A DNA stretch of 35,335 nucleotides, taken from the NCBI GenBank assembly GCA_030019025.1, contig JASEFR010000014.1, forward strand, positions 1 to 35,335, written 5' to 3'. The position numbers and the translations under genes are program-made. Of the stretch, positions 1,615 to 28,223 are shown piece after piece. The notes below the pieces were generated by a model. That model saw only the letters and a list, made by a program, of their open reading frames with translations, made no database searches and was not told the origin of the DNA. The first letter of the stretch is position 1. Each line of letters opens with the position of its first letter. The stretch is from a bacterium (GTDB lineage: Bacteria; Hydrothermota; Hydrothermia; UBA1063).

Positions 1615-2799
1615 ATGGTTTCAACACAGCAAATTTATGACGTAATTGTTATCGGTGGAGGTCCTGCAGGAAGCTCAACTGCTTATCATTTTGCAGGTTC
1701 CGGTAGAAAAATCCTTATTGTTGAAAAGGATCGCGAGGTGGGCAGAAATATTCTATGTGCAGAGGGGGTTTCAAAAGGATTCCACGATCTCGTTAAACCT
1801 GAGCGTGGAATAGCATCAGAAATTAAAAAGATAAGAATCATTGTTGAAAATGAGGTTGATTTTACAGTACTTTCCAAGGATTCTTTTGGATTTGTCCTTG
1901 AGCGGAAGATTTTTGACCGATTACTTTTCGAAAGGGCTGTAGAAAAAGGTGCTGTACCGCTTATCAATTCAAGGTTTTTTGACCTCAGAAGAGATGGCGA
2001 CTACTATAAGGTTTTTGTAAATCGGGGTGGTCAAACTCAAGAGTTTCTTTCCAGATATGTGGTAGGCGCTGATGGACCGGGTTCCGGCGTCGGCTTGAAG
2101 GCGGGTATCAGGGCTGAGTTGAAAGAAGGCTTTGTTCATTACTGCTCCCAGGTATACCTTTTTGATGAAAGCATTGAAGCAGATACCATTGTCTTCTACT
2201 ATTCTGAAAAACTTACTCCTGGTGGCTATGGGTGGATATTTCCTAAAAGGAAGGGATTTGCCAATGTGGGCGTGGGTGTTGATACTTCATGGTCTTCTGC
2301 CGAAATGGGCTTAACCCTTTTCCTTGAAAATTATTTCCCTAAGGGGAAAATTCTGGGAAGTTTAAAGGGTGTTGTTCCGTGGGGAGGACTTGAAGAAGAG
2401 GTTTATAAGGATGGAGTTTTTTTAGTGGGCGATGCGGGAAGGCTTGCGGATCCTATGTCGGGTGGTGGAATCGCTAACGCTTACATCTCCGGAAAAATTG
2501 CTGCAGAATCAATAATTGAAGGTAATCCAGAGTCTTATTCTGATAGGTTGAAAAAGGTTCTGGGTAGGGATTATCAGATTTCAACTCTGGTAAAAAAGGT
2601 TTTTTACTCTTTGAAACGAGAAGAACTTGTTGAGGTTTTCAAAGATTTGAGCAGGAATTTAGATGGGCAGTATCTGGAAGACATAAATGCGGTATCTGCT
2701 TTAAAATTGGTTCTAAGTGTTTCCCCAAGACTGTTTGGCGTTTTGCTTTCCTATGGGGGTAGTAAAATAAATGAGTTTATACGAAAGATTGTTTCATAA
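1615..2799 (+). CDS. geranylgeranyl reductase family FAD-dependent oxidoreductase
   Basis: The product is a 394-residue flavoprotein of the geranylgeranyl reductase / digeranylgeranylglycerophospholipid reductase family. These enzymes use FAD to saturate double bonds of isoprenoid chains, either in prenylated lipids or in geranylgeranyl diphosphate. Visible motifs are the dinucleotide fold GGGPAG at residues 14-19 with the acidic ribose-binding residue E37, the family substrate motif PGGYGWIFP (202-210), and the second FAD block GDAGRLADPMSGGGI (272-286). Length is typical. The ATG directly follows the TAG of the SH3-like gene, and the 3' end overlaps the GGGP synthase gene by 29 bases, indicating translational coupling. 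Adjacency to GGGP synthase favours a membrane ether-lipid reductase over a menaquinone or tocopherol-type role, but substrate assignment is inference. Confidence 0.85.
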   Translation: MVSTQQIYDVIVIGGGPAGSSTAYHFAGSGRKILIVEKDREVGRNILCAEGVSKGFHDLVKPERGIASEIKKIRIIVENEVDFTVLSKDSFGFVLERKIFDRLLFERAVEKGAVPLINSRFFDLRRDGDYYKVFVNRGGQTQEFLSRYVVGADGPGSGVGLKAGIRAELKEGFVHYCSQVYLFDESIEADTIVFYYSEKLTPGGYGWIFPKRKGFANVGVGVDTSWSSAEMGLTLFLENYFPKGKILGSLKGVVPWGGLEEEVYKDGVFLVGDAGRLADPMSGGGIANAYISGKIAAESIIEGNPESYSDRLKKVLGRDYQISTLVKKVFYSLKREELVEVFKDLSRNLDGQYLEDINAVSALKLVLSVSPRLFGVLLSYGGSKINEFIRKIVS

Positions 2800-3490
2800 T
2801 GGCGAAAAGAAGAAGGTCTTGGTCCTCTTAGACCCAGATAAGCTCAATGATGAGAAAGTTTTTAAAATACTTTCTCTTTATGAGAATCAAGAGAAGGTTT
2901 TAGGCTTTCTTGTAGGAAGTAGCCTCCTTGTCAGGTCCGATATGGAAGACTTCATTAGCAGGCTAAAGAGTAATACCTCTAAGCCCGTTATTATCTTCCC
3001 GGGGTCCCATTGCCAGGTGGTTAAAGGTGCAGACGCCATTTTGTTTCTCTCTCTTTTGAGCGGAAGGAATCCACAGTATTTGATTGATGAACAGGTGAAA
3101 ATGGCCCCTCTTGTAAAGAGGTATGGACTTGAGGCAATTCCGACTGCCTATCTTCTTTTCGATTCCGGTAAAACCACAACGGTGGAATTTGTATCCGGTA
3201 CCCGTCCTTTACCGCGAGATAAGGTGGATTTAGCAGTAGCCCATGCACTGGCCGCAGAATATCTTGGATTTAAACTGTTGTACCTTGAGGCGGGTTCTGG
3301 CGCACTAAATCCTGTACCAGGTGAGGTCATAAGAAATATTAAAGATAGCGTTAACATTCCCCTAATTGTGGGGGGAGGTTTGAATACGGAGGAGAAAATT
3401 TTGAGAGCCTTTGAAAACGGCGCTGATTTTGTAGTTATAGGGAATAAACTGGAAGAAGATCCAGAGTTTTTGAGGAGGTTATATGGTTAA
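2771..3490 (+). CDS. geranylgeranylglyceryl phosphate synthase family protein (PcrB/GGGPS, TIM barrel)
   Basis: This 239-residue protein belongs to the family that joins a prenyl diphosphate to sn-glycerol-1-phosphate by an ether bond, the first committed step of archaeal membrane lipid synthesis. The TIM-barrel signatures are present: VLLDPDK near the N-terminus (18-24), IPTAYLLFDSG (123-133), DLAVAHALAAEYLG (153-166), the phosphate-binding YLEAGSGA (171-178), GGGLN (201-205) and VIGNKLEED (222-230). The extended AHALA...YLEAGSGA pattern resembles the group shared by some archaea and FCB-group bacteria rather than Bacillus heptaprenyl-type PcrB; this is a judgement by eye. The gene overlaps the GG-reductase gene upstream and the HD gene downstream. 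Chain length (C20 versus others) cannot be read from sequence alone. Confidence 0.85.
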   Translation: MSLYERLFHNGEKKKVLVLLDPDKLNDEKVFKILSLYENQEKVLGFLVGSSLLVRSDMEDFISRLKSNTSKPVIIFPGSHCQVVKGADAILFLSLLSGRNPQYLIDEQVKMAPLVKRYGLEAIPTAYLLFDSGKTTTVEFVSGTRPLPRDKVDLAVAHALAAEYLGFKLLYLEAGSGALNPVPGEVIRNIKDSVNIPLIVGGGLNTEEKILRAFENGADFVVIGNKLEEDPEFLRRLYG

Positions 3491-4160
3491 ACTGACGTAT
3501 CAAGACCTACTTCACGATGAAGAAGTCGTTACTTACGTAAAAAAGGCTGATGCCCAATTGGAGGCAATGGGTTATACAGAGCATGGACTTAGGCATGTAA
3601 CTTGGGTTGCGAAAAGAACAGGTCAAATTCTTGAAATGCTCGGTTATGGTGAAAATTTGAAAAAGCTTGGAGAGATTGCAGGCCTTCTACACGATGTAGG
3701 CAATCTCGTTAACAGGGAGCATCATGCGCAGGTTGGTGCCATTATTGCAGGTGACCTTCTCAGGCGCAGGGGATTTCCGGTGGATCAGGTTGCGGACGTG
3801 ATGATGGCTATTGGAAATCATCATGAAGAGGATGGCTTTCCCTCTTCGATCCTTTCTGCTGCCCTGATACTGGCTGACAAAGCGGATGTACATAGAAGCA
3901 GAGTGAGAAAAATAGGAAATATATGGGAAAATTTGAAGGTAGATATCCACGATAGGGTGAATTTTGCTGCAACGAGTTCTAAAATATTGGTTGACCCTGA
4001 GAAGAGGTCAATAACCTATGAAATTGAAATTGATACCAACATTGCACCTGTTGTAGAATTTTTCCAGATTTTTATGTCAAGGGTAATGGTTGCCCATCGA
4101 GCAGCTAAAACCCTCGATGCGGTTTTTCATCTGTATATCAATAATACCCCGATGATTTAG
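3483..4160 (+). CDS. HD-domain phosphohydrolase family protein
   Basis: The product has 225 residues with an HD metal-dependent hydrolase domain. Candidate metal ligands are H38 (GLRHV), the H70-D71 pair (GLLHDVG), H80/H81, H113/H114 (IGNHHEE) and D132 (LADKADVH). The family includes nucleotide and cyclic-nucleotide phosphohydrolases; the substrate here is not evident. The C-terminal 70 residues, starting around VRKIGNIWENLKVD, are not a recognisable second domain. The ATG has a strong GAGGAGG ribosome site inside the end of the GGGP synthase gene and overlaps it by 8 bases. The rho gene follows after 10 bases, so it belongs to the same transcription unit. Function is unassigned. Confidence 0.8.
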   Translation: MVKLTYQDLLHDEEVVTYVKKADAQLEAMGYTEHGLRHVTWVAKRTGQILEMLGYGENLKKLGEIAGLLHDVGNLVNREHHAQVGAIIAGDLLRRRGFPVDQVADVMMAIGNHHEEDGFPSSILSAALILADKADVHRSRVRKIGNIWENLKVDIHDRVNFAATSSKILVDPEKRSITYEIEIDTNIAPVVEFFQIFMSRVMVAHRAAKTLDAVFHLYINNTPMI

Positions 4161-4170
4161 GAGGGAGGAA

Positions 4171-5475
4171 ATGTTCGACGTTAAAGAGTTGGAAAAGAAG
4201 AAATTGAGCGAGCTTTATGAGATAGCAAAGGAGCTGTCCATTGAAAATTACGAGGAGCTCAGGAAGAAAGATCTCATTGAGAAAATTCTTGAGCACCAGG
4301 CAGCACAAAATGGCATAAAGTATTGTGAAGGCGTTCTCGAGATTATTGAACAGGAGAAGGAAGGAGAAAAGGGTAGGAAGTCGATATTTGGATTCCTTCG
4401 AAAAAAAGAGAAAAATTACGCGCCAAGTGATGATGATATTTACGTATCCTATGCTACCATCAAATCTTATGGGTTGAGAGAGGGTGATCACGTTGTCGGA
4501 TATGCCAAAAAACTTAAGGAAGGCGATAAGAGCATGGCCCTGACTCAGATTGAGAGGGTTAACGGAAAATTACCAGAAGAATTAAGGTCGAGGCCCCAAT
4601 TTGAAGAGCTGGTTCCCTTCTACCCAACCAGAAAATTCAATTTGGAGATACCAAACGAAAACGATATTTCCATGAGGATTGTTGATCTTTTTGTTCCCAT
4701 TGGTATGGGACAAAGGGGACTCATTGTTTCCCCTCCGAGGGCTGGTAAAACGGTTCTTTTACAGAAAATAGCCAATTCAATTTTGAAGAATCACAGAGAT
4801 GAGGTAAAACTTATTGTGCTTTTGATTGACGAGAGGCCTGAAGAAGTGACCGACTTTAAGAGAAATGTGGACGCGGATGAGATTATAAGCTCTACCTTTG
4901 ACATGCCGGCGGAGAGGCACACTAAAGTTGCAGAAATCGTCCTTGAAAGGGCAAAAAGACTTGTAGAGTTAGGAGAAAATGTTGTAATACTTCTTGATTC
5001 CTTAACCAGATTAGCACGAGCCTACAATGTGGTGACACCGCATTCGGGTAGGACCTTGTCGGGTGGTATAGATTCAACTGCTCTTGTTAAACCCAAGAAG
5101 TTTTTCGGGGCTGCAAGAAATATTGAAGGTGGAGGGTCTCTTACAATTATTGCTACTGCGTTAATTGAAACGGGTTCGAAGATGGATGAAGTGATCTTTG
5201 AGGAGTTTAAGGGAACGGGAAACATGGAGCTGGTTCTCGATAGAAGGCTTGCGGATAGAAGAATTTTCCCTGCAATAGATCTTAATAAGTCTGGTACAAG
5301 AAGGGAAGAGCTACTCCTTGACCGGGAGGTTTTGAGACGCATATGGGCGATCCGTAAGGTACTTTCTGAGCTGGATCCAATTGATGCTATGCTTCGACTT
5401 CAGAGCAAGATGCAAATATTTACGAATAATGCTGAGTTTATCGAGCACGTTTACGATGAGTTTGTTGAGGTCTAA
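4171..5475 (+). CDS. rho: transcription termination factor Rho
   Basis: This 434-residue hexameric RNA helicase terminates transcription. An N-terminal helical Rho_N region (about 5-45) precedes the OB-fold RNA-binding domain, with GVLEII and YAPSDDDIYVS, and then the RecA-like ATPase domain. The P-loop is SPPRAGKT (187-194), followed by LIVLLIDERPEEVTD and the Walker B strand VVILLDSLTRLARAYN; the R-loop GGGSLTIIATALIETGSKMD is present. Within the OB fold, about ten Lys/Glu-rich residues (about 61-71) separate GVLEII from the conserved FGFLR, a longer loop than in most Rho proteins. A strong AGGAGGGAGG ribosome site precedes the ATG. Confidence 0.97.
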   Translation: MFDVKELEKKKLSELYEIAKELSIENYEELRKKDLIEKILEHQAAQNGIKYCEGVLEIIEQEKEGEKGRKSIFGFLRKKEKNYAPSDDDIYVSYATIKSYGLREGDHVVGYAKKLKEGDKSMALTQIERVNGKLPEELRSRPQFEELVPFYPTRKFNLEIPNENDISMRIVDLFVPIGMGQRGLIVSPPRAGKTVLLQKIANSILKNHRDEVKLIVLLIDERPEEVTDFKRNVDADEIISSTFDMPAERHTKVAEIVLERAKRLVELGENVVILLDSLTRLARAYNVVTPHSGRTLSGGIDSTALVKPKKFFGAARNIEGGGSLTIIATALIETGSKMDEVIFEEFKGTGNMELVLDRRLADRRIFPAIDLNKSGTRREELLLDREVLRRIWAIRKVLSELDPIDAMLRLQSKMQIFTNNAEFIEHVYDEFVEV

Positions 5476-17888: not shown

Positions 17889-19526
17889 ATGGAAACCTTG
17901 TTTGAAGATAAAAAATTCAGGGAGTTTATTGAAAAGGCGAAAAAGGAAAAGAAAGTTACCTTCGATGAGCTTGAGAAGGTTTTGCAATATCCGGTTGGTA
18001 CTGAGCAATTTGAAGAGGTTATGATGGCGCTTCAGGAAGAGGGGATTGAAGTTCACGAATCTTTCAGAGCAAGGAAAAAGAAAAGGTTTGACCATGATAT
18101 TTTGGAAAAGGAAGAGTTTTCTCAGATAAGGGATGATCCTACCAAGACCTATTTGAAACAAGTTTCTCATCTTAGTTTGCTTACTAAAGAGGAGGAGCAA
18201 GAATATTCTAAAATGATCGATGAGGCGAGGAGAGGTATAGTTCGCGAGCTTTTTGCTACCCCCTATGGAATTGAGAGATTTTATATGCTTATAAGGCAAT
18301 GTTTAGATGGTTTTATCCCTATAGAGGAGCTTGTTCAAGTAGATTCACACTACTGGACATCAAGGGAGATGAATAAGAAAGAGAAAAACAGAGTGGAGAA
18401 AAGCTTTCGCGAGCTCAAAAAGCTAATTGAAGAGTACCAGAGTCTGTCTTTCTCAAAAGAAAAGGAAAAAATGGCGAAAAAGATTGCAGAAAAAATTGAA
18501 AAGATATCTCCAAGGTTTTCTGTGGTTAAAGATATATTTTTTAAGTTTGAGGAAGAAATCAACAATATTAGAGAGTTTTATGAGAGGTTGAATGCACTAA
18601 GGGCTGAAGAGGAGGAATTGAAGAATAAACCTCACAAAACTCCCAGGGATTTGGAAAGAGTTGGCGAACTAATGTATGTTATGAGGGAGACTGCAGGTGC
18701 GCTGGAGCAAAGAATTGGAAAAATCGGTATGTCCTATGATGAAGCGGACAAGGTTTATGCGAGCCTTAGGGAGTATTTCGCAAGGCTTGAGTTTGCTAAG
18801 TGTAAGATGGTCGAAGGTAACGTGAGGTTGGTGATCGATATCGCGAAAAAGTTCATGAATAGGGGGCTCGAGTTTGGTGATTTGATTCAGGAAGGTAACC
18901 TCGGTTTAATCAAGGCTGTCGAAAAATTCGATTACCGAAGAGGATTCAAATTCTCCACTTATGCTACTTGGTGGATTAAACAATCCATCTCAAGGGCAAT
19001 AGCTGACCAGTCAAGGGTTATAAGAATCCCTATCCACATGATTGAAACTATAACTAAAATTAACAGGGCTATCAAATATTTAATGCAAGAGCTTGATAGG
19101 GAACCTACTTATGAGGAAATTGCAGAGGCTACCAACCTGACCGTTGAAAAGGTGAAACAGGCTCTGGAAGCACAGAAGGAACCAATTTCAATGGATAAAC
19201 CGATTGATCACGACGAGAAATCTATAATTGCTGAATATATCGTTGATAGAGAAAATAATCCGCTTGAGTATGCAAAAGAGTTTATATTGAAAGAACGTCT
19301 TGAAGAGGTTCTCCAAACCTTATCCAAAAGAGAAAGGAAGATTCTTGAATACAGGTTTGGGCTAAATGGCCATCCACCTAAAACGCTTGAGGAGGTTGGA
19401 GCGATTTTCGGCATTACGAGGGAAAGGGTAAGGCAGATTGAGGCGAAGGCTATTAAGAGATTGCAACATCCTATGAGAATGCAAAGACTCAGACAATTAA
19501 TTGAACCCCCTGATTTTAATCAGTAA
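17889..19526 (+). CDS. rpoD: RNA polymerase primary sigma factor RpoD
   Basis: This 545-residue sigma70 directs housekeeping transcription. A region 1.1-like N-terminus (about 1-60) is followed by region 1.2 ([20 protein letters not shown]), a nonconserved charged stretch (about 120-280), and region 2 ([56 protein letters not shown]). Region 3 has [10 protein letters not shown], and region 4 has [24 protein letters not shown]. The canonical region 2.4 and 4.2 sequences agree with the TTGAcN/TATAAT-like promoters seen in this window. Its stop codon shares one base with the ispDF ATG. Confidence 0.98.
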
Positions 19527-20662
19527 TGTCAGAGTTTTCTGCAATTGTAGTTGCTGCTGGTCAGGGTAAAAGGTTTGGTGGAGATAAAGCATTTGTTGAA
19601 GTTTTTGGAAAATACCTTGTAGAATATTCCCTTGAAGTATTCGAAAGACATCCTCTTATTTCAGAAGTTGTTCTTGTGTTAAGCAGGCAGAACATCGCAA
19701 AGGGCGAGGAATTAAAGGCAAAGTTTCATAAGCTTACTTCCATTGTTGAAGGAGGGGCAGAAAGAAGTGAATCTGTTCGCAATGGGGTCCGCGAAGCAAA
19801 GGGTGAGTATGTATTGATCCACGACTCTGCAAGGGCCAATGTTAGCAAAGAAATAGTAAACAATGTGATAGCCGGCCTTAAAGAGTTTGATGCGGTGGTT
19901 CCGGGAATTCCCGTAAGGGATACCGTAGGTTACTTTGAGTCGGAAATTTTTTCTACCCAATTGGAAAGAGATAATCTGTATTTGATTCAAACTCCACAGG
20001 GTTTTAGGAGGAAATTGCTCCTTAAATGCTATGAAAAAGCGCAGAAAACATATACTGACGAATCAACTATGGTTTTTGACCTTTTGGGAATAAGGGCAAA
20101 GGTTGTGGAGGGCAGTTTTGAAAATTTTAAAATCACATATCCGGAGGATCTCGTCCATTTCAAAAAATTATTGGGAGGGGAGATGGGATTGAGGGTGGGT
20201 CTGGGCTATGACTCCCATAGGCTTGAACAGGGCAAGACTTTGATCCTTGGCGGAGTTGTTGTTTCAAAGGAAATTGGTCCTGTTGCTCATTCCGATGGAG
20301 ATTGTTTGGTACACTCAATCATTGATGCGTTTCTTGGCGCTGTGGGGGATAGGGATATTGGATACCATTTTCCTGACAGCGATCCCAAATTTGCTGGTGT
20401 TTCAAGCTTAAAACTTCTTGGAGAGATCCTGGAAAAGTGGAAAAGCAGAGTGGAGATAATTAACGTTGACTCCTTTGTTAAACTGGAAAAGCCAAAGATT
20501 CGAGACTTGATACCAGAGATGAAGGGAAAAATTTCAAGGATTCTTGAAATCGCTCCAGAGAGAATTAACATAAAGGCAAAGACGGGAGAGATGGTAGGCC
20601 CTGTTGGCGAATCCCGGCTTATTGAATGTGAAACAATTATTCTTCTGAGATTTAAATCCTAA
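19526..20662 (+). CDS. ispDF: bifunctional IspD/IspF (MEP isoprenoid pathway)
   Basis: The 378-residue protein fuses two MEP-pathway enzymes. Residues 1-219 are IspD (MEP cytidylyltransferase) with VVAAGQGKRFGGDK, IHDSAR and QTPQGFRRKLL; residues 221-378 are IspF (cyclodiphosphate synthase) with metal ligands D229 and H231 (GYDSHRL), the HSDGDCLVHS block with H263, and GDRDIGYHFPDSDP. The fusion skips IspE between the two steps, as in other known IspDF proteins. An in-frame ATG at codon 220 (20183) is preceded by GGGAGGGG, so free IspF might also be made. It is the last gene of the operon; its TAA overlaps the stop of the convergent PhoU-like gene. Confidence 0.95.
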   Translation: MSEFSAIVVAAGQGKRFGGDKAFVEVFGKYLVEYSLEVFERHPLISEVVLVLSRQNIAKGEELKAKFHKLTSIVEGGAERSESVRNGVREAKGEYVLIHDSARANVSKEIVNNVIAGLKEFDAVVPGIPVRDTVGYFESEIFSTQLERDNLYLIQTPQGFRRKLLLKCYEKAQKTYTDESTMVFDLLGIRAKVVEGSFENFKITYPEDLVHFKKLLGGEMGLRVGLGYDSHRLEQGKTLILGGVVVSKEIGPVAHSDGDCLVHSIIDAFLGAVGDRDIGYHFPDSDPKFAGVSSLKLLGEILEKWKSRVEIINVDSFVKLEKPKIRDLIPEMKGKISRILEIAPERINIKAKTGEMVGPVGESRLIECETIILLRFKS

Positions 20663-27338: not shown

Positions 27339-28223
27339 GTGGAGATTTTAGAGTACATAGAACAAAAAAGTGAACTCGTCAACAGAAAGTTGGAGGAGTT
27401 TTTTCCCCAGAATGCTAAGGGGGTCCCCTTACTAAGGGAGTCAATGCGATATTCCCTTTTCGCTGGTGGCAAAAGGCTGCGCCCAGTTCTGTGCATATTG
27501 GGATATGAACTGTGTGGTGGAAAAAAGGAGGAAGAAATTTTACCTCAGGCTTGTGCCCTTGAAATGATCCATACTTTCACACTCGTTCACGATGATCTGC
27601 CTGCAATGGATAATGACGACTTTCGTCGTGGAAAACCGACAAATCACAGGGTATATGGTGAAGCTATGGCGATTCTTGCTGGTGATGCCCTTTTTATTGA
27701 GGCTATCGGGTTGTTTTTAAAAGGCCCGTTAAGTGCAGAGATTAAAATTAAGATGTTAAATGAGCTTGTGGATGCACTTGGCGTAGACGGAGTCATTGGA
27801 GGACAGGTGCTGGACTTAAAGGCTGAGGGAAAGGTTCACACTCAAAGGTTGGTTGAAAATATCCATTTAAGGAAGACAGCACGGTTTATTGAGGCCTCCA
27901 TTGTAATTGGAGCTATAGGCTCAGGGATTGACGAATCTATTGTGGAAGGTTTCAGAAGAATTGGAAGAAAACTGGGTCTGCTTTTCCAAATCGTGGATGA
28001 TATCCTTGACGAAACGGCAGAGGACGAAGAGCTTGGTAAAAAAGCTAAGAAAGACAGAGAAAGGGGAAAGTGCACCTATCCCTCCGTGTTGGGACTTGAA
28101 AGGTCCTATGATGTAGCGAGGGAACTGGTAAGGGATATTAAAGTGGAGGCTAAGAGTATTCTGGGAGATAAAAGCAAATTATTAGAAGGACTTGCGGATT
28201 ATTTTCTTTCCAGGAGGAAGTGA
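27339..28223 (+). CDS. polyprenyl (probably farnesyl) diphosphate synthase
   Basis: The 294-residue trans-prenyltransferase condenses isopentenyl diphosphate with allylic primers. The first Asp-rich motif is DDLPAMD (85-91), with the two-residue insertion of bacterial type II enzymes; the second is VDDILDE in helix H. Other conserved parts are GGKRLRP (43-49), GKPTNHRVYGEA and GGQVLDL. The residue five before the first Asp motif is F80 (HTFTLVHDD), as in E. coli IspA (Tyr there); an aromatic residue at this position favours C15 rather than C20 product. A GTG start with a GGGGG site is used. It could feed quinones, undecaprenyl phosphate or the GGGPS step, directly or after elongation. Confidence 0.9.
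   Translation: MEILEYIEQKSELVNRKLEEFFPQNAKGVPLLRESMRYSLFAGGKRLRPVLCILGYELCGGKKEEEILPQACALEMIHTFTLVHDDLPAMDNDDFRRGKPTNHRVYGEAMAILAGDALFIEAIGLFLKGPLSAEIKIKMLNELVDALGVDGVIGGQVLDLKAEGKVHTQRLVENIHLRKTARFIEASIVIGAIGSGIDESIVEGFRRIGRKLGLLFQIVDDILDETAEDEELGKKAKKDRERGKCTYPSVLGLERSYDVARELVRDIKVEAKSILGDKSKLLEGLADYFLSRRK

Follow-up and report, generated by a model that had tools for sequence, protein, structure and literature searches.

Archaea build their membranes from isoprenoid ethers on G1P and bacteria from fatty-acid esters on G3P, and this lipid divide is a central problem in the early evolution of cells. Mixed membranes have been suggested to exist in nature, although to our knowledge none has been isolated. 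In this regard, two overlapping genes of archaeal lipid type in a bacterium raise the question of whether the host can make an archaeal-style ether lipid beside its own lipids. The genes lie in a stretch of 35,335 nucleotides (hereafter the window), which opens contig C14 in a 1.73 Mb genome that is 98.9% complete.

An earlier note on this DNA had placed overlapping geranylgeranyl reductase (GGR) and GGGP synthase-family genes at 1615-3490 in a bacterial setting. Both open reading frames were found there, on the + strand and sharing 29 nt: GGR at 1615-2799 (394 aa) and GGGP synthase (GGGPS) at 2771-3490 (239 aa). After the 23S and 5S rRNA genes, they belong to an almost gapless run on the + strand, SH3-GGR-GGGPS-HD-rho. 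It opens with a gene for a small SH3-domain protein (1216-1614, +; PF06347/PF08239), which also adjoins GGR in the other genomes of the window's family. Since the stop codon of this SH3 gene stands immediately before the GGR start codon, and since the HD-domain gene between GGGPS and rho (3483-4160, +; PF01966) shares 8 nt with GGGPS, the run from the SH3 gene to the transcription termination factor gene rho (4171-5475, +) is likely a single transcript. The HD gene occupies the same place in five families of the phylum (f1, f2, f5, f8 and f11). Direct reading also bore out the bacterial surroundings, which comprise groEL, rpoD, fabH, ispDF and a prenyl synthase gene besides the rRNA genes and rho.

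The GGGPS protein scored 187 bits with TIGR01769 (phosphoglycerol geranylgeranyltransferase; cut-off 161.6), 156 against 113 with TIGR01768, and 267 bits with PRK04169.1-2 (cut-off 247). Its best PDB chain was 4JEJ (E 1e-59), followed by 4MM1, and we take these two to be the enzymes of Flavobacterium johnsoniae and Methanothermobacter, respectively, whose GGGPS are described as group IIb and group IIa (PMC9385802). With 4JEJ, the closest solved relative, the window protein shares the conserved Tyr/Tyr/Glu residues, intact phosphate-binding loops and a medium-sized residue, Val83, at the site that corresponds to the chain-length limiter of group II. Its AYLLFD (126) and YLEAGSGA (171) align with GYLVVE and YLEAGSGA of MtGGGPS. 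Unlike group II as described, F. johnsoniae included, the window protein and its family have Asn (IGN) in place of Thr, as group I also does. Bacillus PcrB, the heptaprenylglyceryl phosphate synthase, shares the superfamily and fold but belongs to group I, and an identity of this type was rejected at 21 bits with NF003197 against a cut-off of 260. By these matches the window protein is a group-II GGGP synthase, with predicted C20 transfer to G1P.

The assignment of GGR is broader. It scored 211 bits with the NCBIfam subfamily model TIGR02032 (cut-off 158.8), the only grade that it passes, and also matched Pfam GGR_cat; no equivalog cut-off was reached, including those of the archaeal archaeol reductases (NF041160, 153 against 780; NF041080, 110 against 580). 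Among the specific models, the Thermoplasmatales archaeol reductase scored highest (153), followed by BchP/ChlP (124 and 62) and MenJ (57). All five archaeal GGR motifs listed in PMC10821996 are present, namely GxGxxG (14-19), the catalytic Cys within LCAEGVS (47-53), RxxFD (97-101), PxxYxWxFP (202-210) and LxGD (270-273). The closest solved relative, the archaeol reductase of Thermoplasma acidophilum (3OZ2, digeranylgeranylglycerophospholipid reductase; E 7e-43), has the GGR motifs in common with the window protein; the alignment is limited to roughly the first 310 residues, and the window protein differs in its bacterial host and in the overlap of its gene with GGGPS. A reductase of MenJ/ChlP type was rejected (MenJ 57 against 700, ChlP 62 against 505). 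Moreover, a genome search found neither MqnA nor a UbiA protein of MenA grade, which makes a quinone an unlikely substrate. The earlier note had named a PcrB-type synthase and a menaquinone- or chlorophyll-type reductase as evidence that would speak against an ether lipid, and the model scores point away from both.

The same note had seen neither a UbiA-type DGGGP synthase (DGGGPS) nor G1P dehydrogenase (G1PDH) in the window, and had called for a genome search for these two and CarS. The search recovered a candidate for the first of the three. Two UbiA proteins are encoded in the genome, and one of them (L001, on contig C7 of G000) has as its sole strong PDB match the Methanocaldococcus DGGGP synthase 6M31 (E 9e-22, nearly full length). 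Both Asp motifs of this closest solved relative are intact in L001, NxxxDxxxD at 57-65 and DxxDxxxD at 176-183. L001 stays below the NCBIfam equivalog cut-offs, its best model being GGGP geranylgeranyltransferase (NF009521, 132 against 296). Ten N at L001:1484-1493 break the 3' end of the gene, so the C-terminus of the DGGGPS-like protein is uncertain. The second UbiA protein, L002, scored much lower than L001 with the DGGGPS models and was rejected.

G1PDH was found nowhere in the host genome, and its model NF002022 matched nothing in the five genomes of the family (94-100% complete). The sole PF13685 match, L003, was set aside as an ordinary Fe-alcohol dehydrogenase; it lies near a gene reading like aldehyde ferredoxin oxidoreductase. 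CarS was likewise not found in the host genome, and four borderline matches elsewhere in the phylum (26-28 bits) were rejected. Tes was not found, the search giving generic radical-SAM scores with a best value in the phylum of 95 against 450. Thus both CarS and Tes, the two markers of a complete archaeal phospholipid and tetraether pathway, were missing. On the bacterial side, three copies of PlsY in the genome and FabH in the window indicate that the host very probably makes ester lipids, and GGGPS, DGGGPS-like and GGR genes therefore stand together with an ester-lipid pathway in one bacterial genome.

As for isoprenoid supply, the earlier note's IspDF of the MEP pathway was confirmed by direct reading of its translation (19526-20662, +). 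The prenyl diphosphate synthase (27339-28223, +; PF00348) is also present, but it offers less support than had been implied. It scored 300 bits with the FPP synthase model NF045485 (cut-off 275) and 292 with the GGPP CrtE model (cut-off 460), and a bulky Phe stands five residues upstream of the first Asp-rich motif. It looks like a C15 enzyme that need not produce the C20 substrate, and GGPP may or may not be supplied by it.

This inventory resembles that of Ca. Cloacimonetes and other FCB bacteria, in which GGGPS, DGGGPS-type UbiA, GGR, isoprenoid and prenyl synthase genes also occur beside ester-lipid genes. GGGPS and DGGGPS of Ca. Cloacimonetes, the best-studied of the FCB cases, yielded archaeal-type lipids in E. 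coli, and these bacteria lack both G1PDH and CarS (Villanueva et al., PMC7852524), as does the window's genome. An own source of G1P (EgsA/AraM), missing from the window's family, is therefore not strictly defining. The two systems differ in that GGGPS lies near DGGGPS in Ca. Cloacimonetes, whereas in the window it overlaps GGR and DGGGPS is encoded elsewhere; in addition, other families of the window's phylum carry a G1PDH-like gene, unlike Ca. Cloacimonetes. Judged by gene content, the window's genome appears to be a further case of the FCB-type archaeal ether-lipid gene set.

The coupling of the two genes extends well beyond the window. In 27 genomes of 10 families, GGR is the immediate upstream neighbour of GGGPS and shares its strand; the search coordinates give 26 of these genomes (9 families), and the fetched locus adds G130 of f31. 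This recurrence cannot be put down to chance. The frames overlap by 4-77 nt in the fetched loci, counted from longest-ORF starts, except in G002, in which GGR is doubled and the GGGPS frame is short, perhaps through mis-assembly. The pair precedes HD-rho in f1, f2, f5 and f11 and rho in f3; it lies between alaS and ispE in f12, adjoins alaS in f14, and in f28 and f29 follows an 850-residue gene that we took as alaS from its size and place. Its recurrence in two settings that are unrelated to each other, rho and alaS, points to a functional unit rather than to inherited gene order alone. We found no description of this coupling in the literature searched, and its conservation is an addition to the known FCB-type bacterial ether-lipid gene sets. 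DGGGPS adjoined GGGPS in none of the loci examined. Two families depart from the common picture. The GGR beside GGGPS in f3 (L121, L151) has diverged greatly and does not have PxxYxWxFP in its exact form, and f8 (L145, L146) retains GGGPS-HD-rho without GGR or DGGGPS; its strongly diverged GGGPS, which sits on a very long branch, has perhaps gained a new function or is decaying.

We then considered co-occurrence over 147 genomes of the phylum. GGGPS exceeded its cut-off in 84 of them, while L001-like UbiA (at 1e-8), GGR (at 1e-20) and G1PDH-like genes were found in 90, 104 and 68, respectively. In the association tables, which score 90 genomes as GGGPS-positive because fragments and weak matches are included, GGGPS and DGGGPS-like genes occurred together in 80 genomes, GGGPS only in 10, DGGGPS-like only in 10 and neither in 47 (Fisher p 9e-19); the corresponding counts for GGGPS and GGR were 83, 7, 21 and 36 (p 6e-13), and GGGPS was associated with G1PDH at p 3e-8, all of these values overstating the evidence since they ignore the relatedness of the genomes. 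What can be read from the sequences themselves is which three enzymes these are, that their catalytic motifs are kept, that GGR and GGGPS are coupled and that the genes co-occur over the phylum. All four genes are present in 53 of the 147 genomes, with G1PDH coming from families other than the window's. This is unlike the survey of Coleman et al., in which G1PDH, GGGPS and DGGGPS shared a genome only in Firmicutes, Actinobacteria and Fibrobacteres (PMC6431249).

The G1PDH-like genes deserve caution. Six of their proteins scored 290-361 bits with the G1PDH model, below the curated cut-off of 413, and 79-129 with that of glycerol dehydrogenase. The nearest PDB entry of one of these proteins, L109, was 3CE9, whose depositor name is glycerol dehydrogenase, followed by entries named G1P dehydrogenase. 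In f4, f2 and f18 (L169, L172 and L177) the gene adjoins a nucleotidyltransferase gene, and in L177 (f18) a CDP-alcohol phosphatidyltransferase gene is also beside it. G1P in these three families may be activated to a CDP-glycerol-like compound and may have another use, for example as an activated glycerol head group or a solute. Given these neighbours, and since f18 and f19 have G1PDH without GGGPS, co-occurrence with G1PDH is no proof of ether lipids. Both f18 and f19 also encode proteins of 713-755 aa (L160:3337-5535, L161:2911-5178, L163:2054-4192) in which a GGR-like flavoprotein and a polyprenyl diphosphate synthase are fused, and such a protein might by itself supply reduced prenyl diphosphate.

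Separate trees of GGR and GGGPS gave the same order within the genus, ((window, G053), (G051, G052)), which fits joint vertical descent. Each window protein also nests in a wider clade of the phylum, which speaks against a recent import of either from archaea; since the archaeal sequences at hand were pieces of PDB alignments, the trees neither date nor direct any transfer. The GGGPS-linked GGRs of f1, f2, f5 and f11, which keep the archaeal catalytic motif, form a well-supported clade together with the GGRs of f9.

On balance, we consider it fairly probable that GGR and GGGPS carry out the final saturation and the first ether-bond steps, respectively, of an archaeol-type isoprenoid glycerol ether lipid made beside ester lipids. 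GGGPS would couple GGPP to glycerol phosphate, forming the first ether bond of GGGP; the unlinked UbiA protein L001 would add a second GGPP chain to give DGGGP; and GGR with FAD would saturate the chains. Head group attachment would presumably fall to bacterial CDP-alcohol enzymes, the route put forward for Ca. Cloacimonetes (PMC7852524). Since the cell also makes ester lipids, its membrane would contain both types. The enzyme activities, the lipid product and its membrane role are what we infer here, and the saturated prenyl-glycerol ether suggested by the earlier note finds support in gene content. Weighing against this reading are the lack of G1PDH and CarS, the unlinked DGGGPS, the C15-like prenyl synthase, the L001 score and the subfamily-only grade of GGR.

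Among other explanations, the pair may make a single-chain or minor ether, such as saturated geranylgeranylglycerol or its phosphate, serving as an anchor or signalling lipid while the UbiA protein acts on another substrate. We regard this as unlikely. It would account for GGR alone being linked to GGGPS, it has an analogue in the heptaprenylglyceryl lipid of Bacillus, and it suits a host without CarS; AraM and PcrB of B. subtilis yield small quantities of an ether lipid of unknown role (cited in PMC13400652). On the other hand, L001 has an archaeal DGGGP synthase as its best match over nearly its full length, and DGGGPS-like genes track GGGPS through the phylum. We see little probability that GGR has another isoprenoid (quinone, polyprenol or GGPP itself) as its main substrate, with GGGPS running in reverse or catabolically, the overlap then reflecting a shared isoprenoid supply. 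GGR does occur without GGGPS in f6, f7, f16, f18 and f19, and catabolism was proposed by Coleman et al. for genomes lacking G1PDH (PMC6431249), but the missing quinone genes, the single clade of motif-retaining, GGGPS-linked GGRs and the mostly overlapping adjacency in 10 families all argue otherwise. Archaeal-type enzymes within a metagenome-derived genome could also suggest that the genes come from an archaeon of the sample, as contaminants or by recent transfer; with the genes placed between bacterial rRNA and rho on a single contig, the same gene order recurring in four further genomes of the family, and their position inside a clade of the phylum in either tree, this is extremely improbable.

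The archaeol-type reading leaves the glycerol phosphate to be accounted for, and a family without G1PDH has three options: G1P by another route, G3P in its place, or an enzyme that has been repurposed. One proposal, which we hold to be unlikely, is that the window's family uses an adapted GGGPS to make saturated isoprenoid diethers on G3P, the mirror image of archaeol, or else makes them on G1P supplied by some other enzyme. If true, this would be a natural mixed membrane of a new kind, and we know of no cell in which such a membrane has yet been seen.

Widely in this phylum the genes for the first and last enzymes are retained as an overlapping pair that goes with DGGGPS, and in many genomes with G1PDH, which gives good reason to think that the pathway is selected as a working unit. 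The finding broadens a case that is known but still to be proven, namely that some bacteria may produce lipids of archaeal style, and with close relatives that have or lack G1PDH, and f8 lacking the partner genes, the phylum offers a natural experiment on it.
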